Assembly: GCF_011065895.1 (NCBI RefSeq)
Contig: NZ_JAALCR010000005.1
Location: 62,001 to 126,000 of the forward strand
Source of the DNA: Paludisphaera rhizosphaerae
GTDB taxonomy: Bacteria > Planctomycetota > Planctomycetia > Isosphaerales > Isosphaeraceae
Length of the DNA: 64,000 nucleotides
Reading direction: 5' to 3'
Made by a program: the position numbers and the translations under genes
In this document: positions 37,184-41,776 of the stretch, in pieces
Numbering within the stretch: the first letter of the stretch is position 1
How the letters are laid out: the number at the start of each line of letters is the position of its first letter
The notes under the pieces: model-generated
Told to the model about the DNA's origin: nothing
Database searches by the model: none
The model's input: only the letters and a program-made list of their open reading frames with translations

Positions 37184-37516
37184 TCACCTCGGCGCGAGCT
37201 TGGTGACCAGGACGACCGAGTCCTCAACTCCGGCAAGGGCGTGTGGCTCGCGCGCCGCGAGGTGCAACAGGCTGCCGGCTCGCAGGTCGTGAACGACGCC
37301 GCCGGCCCTGAAGGCGATCCGACCCGAGAGACACTGCACGGTGATCGGCCCTGGGGCGTGGTGCTCGGGGATCTCCACCCCCTTCGCCAGCAGGAGCCGC
37401 TTCAGCTCGAATGCGTCGGTCTTCACCAGCGTTTCGATCTTTCGGCCGCCGACCGGGATCTCCACGCCCTTCAGGAGTTCGATCGCTTCCACGGAAGCGG
37501 TTTGAGGCTCGGACAT
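37184..37516 (-). CDS. small cupin-domain protein
   Basis: This is a 110-residue single cupin. Motif 1 region is VEIPEHHAPGPITVQCLSGRIAF (about residues 47-69), and motif 2 region is LRAGSLLHLAAREPHAL (about 78-95). His residues at the first motif (EHH) could bind metal. It may be a small redox or sensor cupin. Upstream is an intergenic gap of 69 bp to norB, which lies to its right and is transcribed in the same direction, so this gene could be a distal member of the NO operon. Confidence 0.8.
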   Translation of the reverse strand: MSEPQTASVEAIELLKGVEIPVGGRKIETLVKTDAFELKRLLLAKGVEIPEHHAPGPITVQCLSGRIAFRAGGVVHDLRAGSLLHLAAREPHALAGVEDSVVLVTKLAPR

Positions 37517-37585: not shown

Positions 37586-39889
37586 TCAATGGGCCGACGC
37601 CGGTTCGACGGAGAAACTGCGGGCGACGGCGTCGGGCTCGGGATCGAGCGACCAGCCGCCTTTCAGACCCAGGACGAACCAGCCCAGGGCCAGAATGCCG
37701 ATCGCGAAGATGGTGTCGCCGATGATCCGCATCCAGTGCAGGCGCTGGATCGTCGGGCTTTGCATGAAGTCGGCCGAGCGCGCGTACCACATGCCGTGCT
37801 CGACGCTGGCCCAGGTCTGGAGCAAGCCCACCGGCAGCAGGCTGAGCAGAACCATCAGAACCAGACCCAGGTTGATCGACCAGAAGGCGAATGTCAGAAC
37901 GCCCGTCTTCCAGGTCCGCCGGACCGTCAGACCCTTCAGGCAGAAGAGCGCCAGGCCAAAGCCCAGCATGCCGTAGACCCCGAAAAGCGCCGTGTGGCCG
38001 TGCACGGGCGTCGTGTTCAACCCCTGCATGTAGTAGAGGGCGATCGGCGGGTTGATGAAGAACCCGAACAACCCCGCGCCGACGAGGTTCCAGAAGGCCA
38101 CGGAGACGAAAAAGAGGATCGGCAACCGATAGGCGTCGACCCACGGCCGCGCCCGGCTGAGCGTCAGGTTTTCATACGCCTCAAAGCCGATCAGGACCAG
38201 CGGCACGACCTCCAGGGCGCTGAAGACCGCTCCCAACGAGGTGACGACCGTCGGCGTCCCCGTGAAATACAGGTGATGGAACGTGCCGATGATCCCTCCC
38301 GAGAGGAAGATCGTCGTCGAGAACAACACGGCCGCCGCCGCACTCGACGTCTTCAAGAGACCCATCCGAGTGAAGAGGAACGCGATGACCACCGTGGCGA
38401 AGACCTCGAAGAAGCCCTCGACCCACAGATGGACCACCCACCACCGCCAGTATTCGGCGATGGCCAGGTTCGTGTGGCGATGCCACATCAAGCCGGGCGT
38501 GTAGAACAGCGGGATCGCCGCCGAGGCCAGCAGGAAGAGGCCCAGCAGATGCCGGTTCGTCTCCGGACGACGGAACGCCGGCCAGATCGCCCGGACCATC
38601 AGGCCCAGCCAGAGGAACAACCCGACGGCCAGAAAGAGCTGCCAGAACCGGCCCAGGTCGACGTACTCGTACCCCTGATGGCCGAACCAGAAGTTGGCGA
38701 CGTTCCCCAGCCTCTGCTGCACCGCTAGCCACTGGCCGAACATCGAGCCGACCACGATGACCAGCACGCAGACGAACAGGAAGTCGACGCCCGCTTTCTG
38801 GAACTTCGGCTCGTGGCCCGAAACCGCCGGCGCGATGAACAGGCCGGTTGCCAGCCAGGCGGTCGCGATCCAGAAAATGCCCAACTGCGTGTGCCAGGTC
38901 CGCACCACGCTGTACGGCAAGACCTTCGCGAGTGGAATCCCGTAAAAGCCCGACCCCTCGACGCCGTAGTGCGCCGTCACCGCCCCCAGGCCGACCTGTA
39001 CGACGGCCAGGGCGATCACGACCCAGAAATACTTGAGCGTCGCCCGCATTGAGGGCGTCGGATCGAGCGCCAGCAGCGGGTCGCGCTCCGGAGGCTCATG
39101 GTGCTGGGTTTCCCTCTCCTCGCGGCCGCGTTGAACGGCGAAGACCCAGGTCAACGCTCCAACGCCCGCCAGCAGCGAGACGAAACTGACGACCGACCAG
39201 ACGACGACTTGGCCTGACGGTCGGTTCTCAATCAACTCCTCCGCCGGCCAGTTGTTGGTGTACGTGATCGTCGAGCCTGGCCGATCCGTCGAGCACGCCC
39301 ACGAGGCCCAGAAGAAGAACGCGGCGATCTGCGCCCGGCGCTCCGGAGTCTTGATCGTGTCGGTCGGAATGGCGTAAGCGTCGCGCAGGCCGCTCAACTG
39401 CGGGTCATCGCCGAAGAGGGAATCGTAGTGTCCGGCGACGGCCGTGATCGCCTCTCCCCGAACGGGAGAGACGGTCAAGTCGCCGGTCGCCGGGTCGTAG
39501 GTGTTGTGACGGATCTCGTTCTTCAGACGCTCACGCAGCGCGGCGCGGGATTCGGCGTCGAGCGTCTCGTAGTTCGCGCCGCCCTTTTGGACCGCCCAGC
39601 GATCGAGGATCCAGGTCAATTCGCGGTGGAGATAGTCGGCCGACCAGTCGGGCGCCACATACGCGCCGTGCCCCCAGATCGAGCCCACCTCCTGACCTCC
39701 CATCGACTGCCAGACGTTCTGGCCCTCGCGGACGTCGTCTCCCGTGAAAAGCACCTTGCCGTCGGTCGTCACGACTCGCGAGGGGATCGGAGGCGCCATC
39801 CGGTACAGCTCCGTCCCGTAATAGATCAGGACCGTGAACGAGCCGACCAGGACCGCCGCCAGCCCCAGCCACAACCTCCCATAGCGCAT
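37586..39889 (-). CDS. norB: quinol-dependent nitric oxide reductase (qNOR)
   Basis: This is a 767-residue membrane protein that reduces 2 NO to N2O using quinol. Its length fits the fused qNOR form. An N-terminal hydrophilic domain (about residues 35-220; GQEVGSIWGHGAYVAPDWS, cytochrome-c-like fold without a CxxCH heme site) precedes about 13 membrane helices with the expected His ligands: VVRTWHTQLG, WWVVHLWVEGFFEV (with conserved Glu), and GGIIGTFHHLYF. It is 84 bp downstream of the truncated haemoglobin gene on the same strand, and both face nsrR. It probably detoxifies NO rather than denitrifies, because no nitrite reductase is nearby. Confidence 0.93.
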   Translation of the reverse strand: MRYGRLWLGLAAVLVGSFTVLIYYGTELYRMAPPIPSRVVTTDGKVLFTGDDVREGQNVWQSMGGQEVGSIWGHGAYVAPDWSADYLHRELTWILDRWAVQKGGANYETLDAESRAALRERLKNEIRHNTYDPATGDLTVSPVRGEAITAVAGHYDSLFGDDPQLSGLRDAYAIPTDTIKTPERRAQIAAFFFWASWACSTDRPGSTITYTNNWPAEELIENRPSGQVVVWSVVSFVSLLAGVGALTWVFAVQRGREERETQHHEPPERDPLLALDPTPSMRATLKYFWVVIALAVVQVGLGAVTAHYGVEGSGFYGIPLAKVLPYSVVRTWHTQLGIFWIATAWLATGLFIAPAVSGHEPKFQKAGVDFLFVCVLVIVVGSMFGQWLAVQQRLGNVANFWFGHQGYEYVDLGRFWQLFLAVGLFLWLGLMVRAIWPAFRRPETNRHLLGLFLLASAAIPLFYTPGLMWHRHTNLAIAEYWRWWVVHLWVEGFFEVFATVVIAFLFTRMGLLKTSSAAAAVLFSTTIFLSGGIIGTFHHLYFTGTPTVVTSLGAVFSALEVVPLVLIGFEAYENLTLSRARPWVDAYRLPILFFVSVAFWNLVGAGLFGFFINPPIALYYMQGLNTTPVHGHTALFGVYGMLGFGLALFCLKGLTVRRTWKTGVLTFAFWSINLGLVLMVLLSLLPVGLLQTWASVEHGMWYARSADFMQSPTIQRLHWMRIIGDTIFAIGILALGWFVLGLKGGWSLDPEPDAVARSFSVEPASAH

Positions 39890-39973: not shown

Positions 39974-40381
39974 TCAGCCCGCCGTCAGGCCAAGCACCTT
40001 GACCATTCCCTCGCGCATCCGACGCGCCCGACCCAGGAACGCTTCGGCTTCTTCCGGCGTGCAGACCTCGCGGACCGTCGCCTCGAACAGCTCCAACCAG
40101 CGATCGAAATGGCCAGCGGCCATCCCCTCAATCCCACGATGCACCTCCACCGGGCGGCCCTGATACCGCCCCGTGCCGTTCATCGCCGTGGACCAAAAGT
40201 CCGCCATCCGATCCAGATGCCGATCCCAGTCGAGAATCCGACGAGCGAAGATCGGCCCCAACCAATCGTCGCTCGCAACCCGGCGGTAAAACTCCACCAC
40301 CAGTTCACGGATCCGCCCCTCGGACACGGCCGGCCCCTCGGACCACCGCGTCCCCAACCCGGGCGTGTAAGATGTCGACAT
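39974..40381 (-). CDS. group III truncated haemoglobin
   Basis: This is a 135-residue globin. IRELVVEFYRRVASDDWLGPIF is the usual trHb3 N-terminal helix pattern, DRHLDRMADFWSTAMNGTG contains the distal region, and GRPVEVHRGI contains the proximal His (near residue 81). Group III proteins are linked to NO and oxygen chemistry. It lies immediately downstream of the NsrR operator and upstream of norB with the same direction, so it is the first gene of an NO-response operon. Confidence 0.85.
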   Translation of the reverse strand: MSTSYTPGLGTRWSEGPAVSEGRIRELVVEFYRRVASDDWLGPIFARRILDWDRHLDRMADFWSTAMNGTGRYQGRPVEVHRGIEGMAAGHFDRWLELFEATVREVCTPEEAEAFLGRARRMREGMVKVLGLTAG

Positions 40382-40423
40382 GCCCGCGCCTCATCACCAT
40401 CCCGACCAGGCGGCCGGGCTTTT

Positions 40424-40446
40424 AATCTGCATTCCAAATGCATATT
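40424..40446. promoter_or_regulatory. NsrR operator between the NO operon and nsrR
   Basis: This is a 23-bp palindrome with halves AATCTGCATTC and AAATGCATATT around one centre base. By my count it matches 18 of 22 defined positions of the NsrR consensus AAGATGCATTT-N-AAATGCATCTT. It lies 43 bp upstream of the haemoglobin start and 68 bp upstream of nsrR. It also overlaps a plausible plus-strand promoter (TTTTAA, 17 bp, TATTAT at 40443-40448), so NsrR would repress itself and the NO genes. Confidence 0.75.
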
Positions 40447-40513
40447 ATTCTTGGAGACGGGTCCTGTCAATCGGTCAAGGAACTCCTGAGCGGAGGAAAG
40501 GCGGCAGGCGACG

Positions 40514-40981
40514 ATGCAGTTGACGCAGTTCTCCGACTATGCCTTGCGCACGGCGATCTATTTGGGAACACGCGAGGATCGATCGGCGACCGTCGATGAG
40601 ATCAGCCGGGCGTACGGGATCTCGCGGCATCACCTGGTTCGGGTCGTGCAGACACTGACCGAACTGGGCGTGGTGGCCTCTCGGCGAGGGCGCGGCGGCG
40701 GGATACGACTCGCGATGGAGCTGTCTGCGATCAACGTCGGATGGTTGATCCGCCGGACCGAGCCTCATTTCGACGTGGTGGAGTGCTTCCGGCCCGAGAC
40801 CAACACCTGCCCGATCGCCCCGGCCTGTGGCCTGAAGGGGGCCCTTTATCGAGCTCGCGAGGCGTTTCTCGCCGTGCTGGACGAGTACACGCTGGACCAA
40901 CTCCTGACGCGCAAGGGGGAGTTGGTCCAGCTCCTGGATGCGTCTCTGTTGAGGAATTCCAAGTCCAGCGAAGCGGATTGA
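40514..40981 (+). CDS. nsrR: NsrR-type Rrf2 family NO-sensing repressor
   Basis: This is a 155-residue protein. The N-terminal MQLTQFSDYALRTAIYLG is the Rrf2 signature, and the winged helix spans about residues 25-70 (RHHLVRVVQTLTELGVVASRRGRGGG). The three cluster cysteines are C91, C99 and C105 (ECFRPETNTCPIAPACGLK), the NsrR spacing for a NO-sensitive [Fe-S] cluster. It is divergent from the haemoglobin-norB operon. GGAGG is seen upstream of the ATG. Confidence 0.92.
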   Translation: MQLTQFSDYALRTAIYLGTREDRSATVDEISRAYGISRHHLVRVVQTLTELGVVASRRGRGGGIRLAMELSAINVGWLIRRTEPHFDVVECFRPETNTCPIAPACGLKGALYRAREAFLAVLDEYTLDQLLTRKGELVQLLDASLLRNSKSSEAD

Positions 40982-40988
40982 GTCGAGT

Positions 40989-41705
40989 TCAATCCTCGCC
41001 GGCCTGACGACGGCAGGTCTGAACGCGGTCGACGTCGCCGACAGCCAGGAAGATCGTCGTCATCCGCCGCAGACAGCAGCGGCAAGAGACGCCGTCGAGA
41101 TCCACGCCGCGAAGCAGCTCGTAGGCCTCCTCGCGACGCCCGGCGTGATCCAGGAGCGTCGCCAGCGAGATCCGGTACAACTCCGCATCCGGCGCCAGAG
41201 CGTGCGCCTTGGCGACGTAAGAGAGCGCCGTCTCCAACGGCCGCCCGAGCCGCCGCAGGTAGAAGGCCGCCCCGAAATAGGCCTCCGCATGGTCCGGTCG
41301 GCGGCGGATCAGTTCCACGCAGACGTCCAGCGCCTGTTCGAACTCGCCGAGGTATCCGAGGCCCGCCGCAATCGCCGGCATCAATCGCTCCGGACAACGG
41401 CCGTCAGACGCCAGCGCCTGATAAACCGCGCAAGCCGGCGCTGAACGCCCCGTCCGCGCCAGGCTCTCGGCCAGCGCGCAGGTCGCCGTGGGATCGAAGG
41501 GGACCAGCGCCTGCGCCGTTTCCAACGCATCCCGAGCCCCCGTGTAATCCCCCGAACGATGCCGCAATAACCCCACGAACCGCCAGAGCGGTCCGTTGTC
41601 CCCTTCTTCCTCCAGCGCCAGCTCCGCCAGGTCCCCGGCCGCATCGAGGTCCCCAGCCCCCGCCAGCTCGAAGCAACGGCTCAGGATGTCTCCGCCCTGA
41701 CTCAT
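40989..41705 (-). CDS. TPR protein with C-terminal Cys cluster, probably Fur-regulated
   Basis: This is a 238-residue protein with several tetratricopeptide-like repeats across about residues 1-190 (AGDLAELALEEEGDNGPLW, DYTGARDALETAQALVPFDP, FEQALDVCVELIRRRPDH). The C-terminus has a Cys cluster (GVSCRCC, then VQTCRRQ). No enzymatic domain is seen. The start at 41705 is preceded 41 bp upstream by a 31-bp palindrome with Fur-box character. It is convergent with nsrR (7 bp between stops), so it is regulated separately. Cys cluster plus Fur-like site suggest a role in iron or redox handling, as inference. Confidence 0.7.
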   Translation of the reverse strand: MSQGGDILSRCFELAGAGDLDAAGDLAELALEEEGDNGPLWRFVGLLRHRSGDYTGARDALETAQALVPFDPTATCALAESLARTGRSAPACAVYQALASDGRCPERLMPAIAAGLGYLGEFEQALDVCVELIRRRPDHAEAYFGAAFYLRRLGRPLETALSYVAKAHALAPDAELYRISLATLLDHAGRREEAYELLRGVDLDGVSCRCCLRRMTTIFLAVGDVDRVQTCRRQAGED

Positions 41706-41745: not shown

Positions 41746-41776
41746 ATTGCAATTGAGATTCAGTCTCAATTGCAAT
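41746..41776. promoter_or_regulatory. Fur-type palindromic operator upstream of the TPR gene
   Basis: This is a perfect 13-bp inverted repeat (ATTGCAATTGAGA / TCTCAATTGCAAT) with a 5-base centre TTCAG. The core TGAGATT-C-AGTCTCA fits the 7-1-7 arrangement of Fur boxes such as TGAGAAT-N-ATTCTCA with two mismatches. It is AT-rich within a GC-rich genome and 41 bp from the start codon, a typical repressor position. Another Fur-family or unrelated dimeric regulator is possible. Confidence 0.65.

Follow-up and report, generated by a model that had tools for sequence, protein, structure and literature searches.

A predicted NsrR operator and promoter between divergent nsrR and truncated haemoglobin-nitric oxide reductase genes of a planctomycete

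Genes of the locus and identity of the regulator

The window analysed here is a 64-kb stretch of contig 5 in the 8.05-Mb genome of Paludisphaera (G000). The locus comprises a leftward run of three genes, spaced 84 and 69 bp apart and encoding a truncated haemoglobin (trHb), a quinol-type nitric oxide reductase (qNOR) and a small cupin, and a divergent gene for an Rrf2-family protein (Table 1). The trHb and Rrf2 genes are separated by a spacer of exactly 132 bp (40382-40513), whose GC content is below that of its surroundings. The initial annotation had described qNOR and a group III trHb in one direction, NsrR in the other and a 132-bp space between the trHb and NsrR genes, and matches to Pfam, NCBIfam and solved structures bear out this layout. 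The cupin gene was missing from its gene list; it is probably the last gene of the trHb-qNOR operon.

Table 1. Positions of genes and predicted regulatory elements in the window
Feature	Position	Strand	Description and evidence
Small cupin gene	37184..37516	-	open reading frame and Pfam; gene order matched in G030 and G031
Quinol-type nitric oxide reductase (qNOR) gene	37586..39889	-	767 aa; PF22085 and COX1 (PF00115)
Group III truncated haemoglobin (trHb) gene	39974..40381	-	135 aa; Pfam Bac_globin
Predicted NsrR operator, 23-bp imperfect palindrome AATCTGCATTCCAAATGCATATT	40424..40446	.	sole strict match in the window's genome; conservation
Predicted -10 TAATAT of the trHb-qNOR promoter, overlapping the operator	40442..40447	-	promoter scan; 10/12 consensus positions
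Possible nsrR -10 TATTAT	40443..40448	+	sequence read; weak -35 TTTTAA at 40420-40425
Predicted -35 TTGACA of the trHb-qNOR promoter	40465..40470	-	promoter scan; exact at offset 17-18 in 14/17 loci
Rrf2-family NsrR gene	40514..40981	+	Pfam, NCBIfam, solved structures; Asp8, Cys91, Cys99, Cys105

The best solved relative of the trHb is 2ig3, 'Group III truncated haemoglobin' (E=1.7e-12; runner-up 4.6e-6), which we take to be Ctb of Campylobacter. Tyr B10, His E7, His F8 and Trp G8 are identical in the alignment to 2ig3, showing that the protein belongs to group III (trHb3); by position, these are presumably the residue set of Ctb. The qNOR matches a solved NorB chain over nearly its full length (E=2.4e-257), and it carries in one chain the NorB catalytic domain (PF00115) and the N-terminal NorB cytochrome-c-like domain (PF22085), which identifies it as a quinol-type enzyme.

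The protein encoded at 40514-40981 contains the Rrf2 winged-helix domain PF02082 (E=4.8e-33), has NsrR 5n07 as its best solved relative (E=3e-23) and shares 41.5% identity with an E. coli NsrR over 91% of length. Its Asp8 and three cysteines align with an equal set in the NsrR proteins of S. coelicolor and E. coli and are invariant across 15 aligned rows; we take them to have the role of the ligand set of S. coelicolor NsrR. The NCBIfam NsrR model PRK11014 scores the protein at 123.4 bits, below a cut-off of 182 that is a naming threshold and no defining property of NsrR. The same model gives 292.8 for E. coli NsrR, 129.4 for an hmp-linked Rrf2 protein of Paracoccus aminovorans and 151 for one of Bacillus litorisediminis, and the RirA and IscR models give the window protein 117.7 and 43.4, respectively. 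In a tree of 73 rows, with no labelled RirA row and with locus L083 excluded for a stop inside the frame, the 16 nsrR rows of the family form one clade (support 100/98); the deep forks are poorly resolved, and a supported join of this clade with E. coli or S. coelicolor NsrR is absent. Together with the linkage to the NO-metabolism genes trHb3 and qNOR and the NsrR-type operator at the target genes described below, the ligand residues give sequence support to the initial naming of this neighbour as NsrR.

A second NsrR-like clade was also observed (L052-L058, L099-L104). Four of its loci in the family adjoin Tll0287-like genes, and in other families AACATGCAT-type sites lie just upstream of its members (L099, L101-L103), with a divergent qNOR at L101.

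Operator and promoter in the divergent spacer

The spacer contains a 23-bp imperfect palindrome in which 9 of 11 arm positions pair. The initial annotation had counted 18 matches at the 22 defined positions of its NsrR consensus, AAGATGCATTTNAAATGCATCTT; a recount by hand gave the same number, with mismatches at positions 3, 4, 11 and 21. When ambiguous positions are omitted, the operator matches the consensus at 17 of 20 positions, and it matches the consensus printed by Rodionov 2005 at 11 of 14. In 20,000 dinucleotide shuffles of the spacer, 17/20 was never reached (maximum, 16/20), and the next-best place in the whole 64-kb window reaches 13/20. When the window's site is left out of the scoring matrix, the matrix gives that site 38.7 of 43.8 and the next-best place in the window 9.8. 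The looser 14-position consensus is matched at 11 or more positions by 228 of the 20,000 shuffles (~1%), so that the strength of the operator lies in its full 23 bp and in its conservation.

A promoter scan of 40340-40540 found a single promoter, on the minus strand, in which TTGACA and TAATAT are 17 bp apart (shuffles average 0.1). Its -10 element overlaps the right arm of the operator, and the predicted start lies near the operator centre. The overlap of the palindrome with the rightward TATTAT, pointed out in the initial annotation, stands, but the reading of TATTAT as part of a promoter does not fare as well: its -35, TTTTAA, matches at 3 of 6 positions by eye, and the scan of this interval found no plus-strand promoter for nsrR. 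An arrangement of the overlapping divergent -10 elements as one symmetric promoter was considered and is not claimed.

The promoter elements recur across an alignment of 17 loci. An exact TTGACA, 16 to 17 bp from the -10, is found in 14 of them, including the window (the exceptions being G023, G026 and G028), and all 17 have ATATTA, which reads TAATAT in the leftward direction; the six bases before the operator show a mean column agreement of 0.82. The gene behind this conserved promoter varies, being trHb-qNOR in the window, G030 and G031, a cupin in G028, and a protein with a CxxCH motif in ten family genomes. Judging by these alignments, promoter and operator seem to move together as one cassette.

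Outside the spacer, positions 41746-41776 (core 41753-41769) form a perfect inverted repeat, ATTGCAATTGAGA-TTCAG-TCTCAATTGCAAT, before a TPR gene (40989-41705, minus strand). This repeat presumably resembles the box of the iron regulator Fur, and TTGAGATTCAGTCTCAA also precedes the TPR gene in G028, G030 and G031; with two mismatches allowed, the pattern count by itself does not exceed chance.

Distribution of the site and candidate targets in the family

The strict pattern AANNTGNATNNNNNATNCANNTT was scanned in 45 family genomes, with the reversed pattern as control; it has 22 forward places in 17 genomes, and the control has none. Close relatives of this nsrR (61-100% identity) occur in 16 of the 45 genomes, including the window's, and a strict site is found in 15 of these 16 compared with 2 of the 29 lacking nsrR (Fisher p=6e-9, kinship ignored). 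A strict site precedes nsrR in 14 of the 16 genomes, and a degenerate one does so in G023 and G026, where 13/20 versions lie at a similar distance from the gene; the strict site of G023 is upstream of trHb. Among orthologous nsrR loci with flanks, 13 of 15 carry an upstream site of at least 14/20. Across 17 site-anchored loci, column agreement is 0.86 in the operator, compared with 0.43 for the flank upstream and 0.53 for the one downstream. The outer pair differs from the consensus of Proteobacteria, with T at position 3 in 13 of 17 and A at position 21 (of 23) in all 17. The strict pattern becomes rarer beyond the family: it is found at 5 of 28 nsrR-like loci (1.5-kb flanks) in the same phylum and, elsewhere, at 4 of 60 nsrR-like loci (those other than L162-L175) when the 350 bp on the upstream side are considered.

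Of the 22 strict places, 14 lie before nsrR and 3 before targets elsewhere. The five unexplained places (G004, G020:C253, G031:C1:6360245, G033 and G037:C1:5523838) are probable false hits; tblastn found no module proteins at L062, L074 and L075, which represent three of them. The genome-wide search for further regulon members that had been proposed in the initial annotation returned the window site as the only good one. With up to three mismatches allowed, the pattern finds the operator and four places at three mismatches, against two for the control, and these four were dropped as members: the best scores 18.2 by the matrix, compared with 38.7 for the operator, and lies inside an open frame resembling a dehydrogenase by eye, and the other three score 5.4 to 11.6. 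Having one good site, this genome probably has a regulon that consists of the trHb-qNOR/nsrR locus alone.

Sites at unlinked targets in four other genomes argue for control in trans. In G028, nsrR and its site face a cupin gene, and the same contig has, 1.28 Mb from there, a second site with TTGACA before a CxxCH protein-trHb-qNOR run. G038 has a second site before trHb-qNOR beside an nsrR remnant, with an intact nsrR elsewhere. The G023 site before trHb and a cupin lies on a contig other than that of nsrR, and G022 has a site outside the matrix training set, scoring 30.2, at 286 bp before a qNOR match. The G038 remnant (L076:1607-1852) lacks its middle and adjoins a well-kept operator and trHb-qNOR.

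This trHb (E<=1e-8) is present in 10 of the 45 family genomes, all of which have nsrR (hypergeometric p=2.5e-6, kinship ignored). Nine of these ten have a qNOR gene directly downstream of it, which is incomplete in G020; no qNOR is found beside the G023 trHb. Paludisphaera soli JC670 carries the operon as in the window. This adjacency and the co-occurrence of site and nsrR are sequence evidence in favour of the earlier proposal that one regulator links trHb3 to NO reductase. In G003 and G026, no known target adjoins nsrR. One run observed in G009 (L041, 1-6456) is longer: by eye, the genes for a CxxCH protein, trHb and qNOR are followed in one direction by those for a small protein, two cupins and a membrane protein. 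In G016, an NsrR-like site with an upstream TTGACA (L044:259-281) scores 28.5 and stands outside the matrix; the HlyD-type efflux genes about 700 bp downstream of it are not claimed as members.

Matrix scoring covered each of 27 qNOR loci. Seven qNOR loci with at least 57% identity come from genomes that lack this nsrR, and the best score among them is 8.0. Ten loci carry a qNOR type of 39-42% identity, with a best score of -0.2; seven of the ten are in nsrR genomes, with no operator in the examined flanks of these seven genes, which places this type outside the regulon. At L108, L109, L110, L117 and L121, all from nsrR genomes, the operator falls outside the flank, as CxxCH or trHb genes intervene or the contig ends. 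The qNOR genes at G001:C1:3757560, G024:C115:147653 and G025:C48:2520, which belong to three of the seven genomes without the window-type nsrR, adjoin a different Rrf2 gene (about 29% identical), and therefore another regulator may serve there.

The CxxCH protein (at least 60% identity) occurs in 11 of the 45 family genomes, all 11 with this nsrR (p=4e-7). Its gene lies behind an NsrR-type site in 11 of the 16 nsrR genomes and is the first gene of the trHb3-qNOR operon in G009, G018 and G028. The protein has about 450 residues, with an N-terminal signal-like stretch and one CxxCH by eye, and is apparently secreted. In a tree, 8 of the 11 rows form one clade (support 100/100), and the included next matches (56% and less) fall outside it. 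Two more distant members, at 50% and 36%, are present in the window's own genome, and relatives lie beside nsrR-like genes in another family (G165; G383, locus L104). The protein has no match to a Pfam family, an NCBIfam family or a PDB sequence. Its AlphaFold model has a mean pLDDT of 81.3 and a pTM of 0.83; Foldseek against the PDB retrieved nothing at E<=0.001 (best, 0.23), and VIA-align on the Foldseek candidates gave a best Z of 5.5 over 116 residues with exportin chains, within the usual background. These comparisons of the whole-chain model fall short of indicating a new fold. Singulisphaera acidiphila DSM 18658, whose genome is complete, has nsrR and its site, with the CxxCH gene as the only target seen beside the site; neither this trHb nor qNOR has a match there, so that the CxxCH protein may remove or sense NO by itself. 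The suggestion that it represents a novel type of extracytoplasmic haem protein devoted to NO is tentative and somewhat on the doubtful side.

A proposed NO-responsive regulon

The explanation that we consider very probable as a whole is that the Rrf2 protein is NsrR, that it binds 40424-40446 and represses the leftward operon, and that it is released by NO. A chance palindrome in an AT-rich patch would be helped by the lower GC content of the spacer and by the roughly 1% of shuffles that reach the 14-position consensus, but it is hardly credible given the outcome of the 20,000 shuffles at 17/20, the conservation over genera and the empty control in 45 genomes. The palindrome might instead belong to another regulator, such as the second NsrR-like clade, with nsrR adjacent to it incidentally. 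Such a clade is indeed present in the family, but its family members are 38-43% identical to the window protein, the next-best protein in the window's genome reaches 31% (E=5.8e-8), and the sites track the window's own nsrR clade, which makes this reading very improbable.

The Rrf2 protein could also bind the palindrome and report iron or redox state in the manner of RirA or IscR, in which case the operon would answer to iron or oxidants. We regard this as improbable: the RirA model scores almost as high as the NsrR model, and the iron-box-like repeat at 41746-41776 lies nearby, but Asp8 and the three cysteines are those of S. coelicolor and E. coli NsrR, the operator is of the NsrR type, the IscR score is low (43.4), and the neighbouring and co-occurring genes are NO genes. 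A further alternative, unlikely but a serious contender, concerns only the regulator's own gene, in that the site would serve the leftward operon and nsrR would be constitutive from a promoter within the 67 bp after it. This would agree with the poor rightward -35 and with the scan result for the plus strand, whereas the strong conservation of the shared ATATTA and of the bases preceding the operator speaks against it, and divergent Rrf2 genes commonly self-regulate.

If the protein acts as NsrR, by analogy with its characterized relatives, a dimer with an intact iron-sulphur cluster would bind 40424-40446 and cover the -10 and the start of the leftward trHb3-qNOR-cupin promoter, and probably also the weaker rightward promoter of nsrR. 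Self-repression of nsrR would follow from the latter; it is the leftward promoter, reading into trHb, that has support. NO would destroy the cluster, NsrR would leave the DNA, and the operon would be expressed. From the known chemistry of their families, qNOR would then convert NO to N2O at the membrane with electrons from quinol and trHb3 would handle NO in the cytoplasm, with the cupin in a putative helper role. A search for the copper nitrite reductase family found nothing above the cut-off in the 45 genomes and nothing even below it in the window's genome, which makes defence against outside NO likelier than denitrification.

As described by Rodionov et al. 2005 (PMC1274295), NsrR regulons cover beta- and gammaproteobacteria, Bacillus and Streptomyces, with the palindrome gATGyAT-N5-ATrCATc, and norB is under NsrR in Neisseria, Polaromonas and others. 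The system proposed here resembles those regulons in its Rrf2 repressor, palindrome and NO-detoxification targets, but its operator mostly has T:A in place of the outer G:C pair, no hmp is present at the locus, and trHb3 and the CxxCH protein appear as targets. The terms 'planctom' and 'Rhodopirellula' are absent from the main text of that paper, and literature judged by title and abstract opening yielded no description of an NsrR regulon in Planctomycetota; a mat survey reports nsrR as confined, within its community, to two candidate phyla (PMC10866078). Plasmid pPZ02 of Paracoccus zhejiangensis likewise has an Rrf2 gene transcribed away from a gene annotated as group III truncated haemoglobin, and NnrS and NnrU follow at a greater distance, but the Rrf2 protein is 38% identical and no NO reductase is annotated in 8.4 kb. 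Together with NsrR-like genes that tblastn located beside trHb in Bradyrhizobium, Thiomonas and Acidocella loci, this places the adjacency of NsrR-like and trHb genes beyond planctomycetes as well. The Campylobacter NssR regulon (Cgb and the trHb Ctb) similarly includes a truncated haemoglobin induced by NO, although its regulator is of the Crp-Fnr family and not Rrf2, and the Legionella GlbN-ferredoxin reductase operon, as described in the same source, has a truncated haemoglobin under NsrR, but one of cyanoglobin type with a reductase as its partner (PMC3820574).

The regulon is thus, as far as sequence can tell, of a known kind, in a new phylum and with one uncharacterised member, the CxxCH protein, which is the least expected part of it. 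The NsrR regulon, with its operator and promoter architecture and a defined 23-bp site, would thereby be extended to Planctomycetota. The tie of trHb3 to qNOR in 9 of the 10 trHb genomes provides a lead on the function of group III truncated haemoglobins, and through its regulation an uncharacterised family of haem-type proteins comes into view, with members in cultured strains, S. acidiphila DSM 18658 among them.
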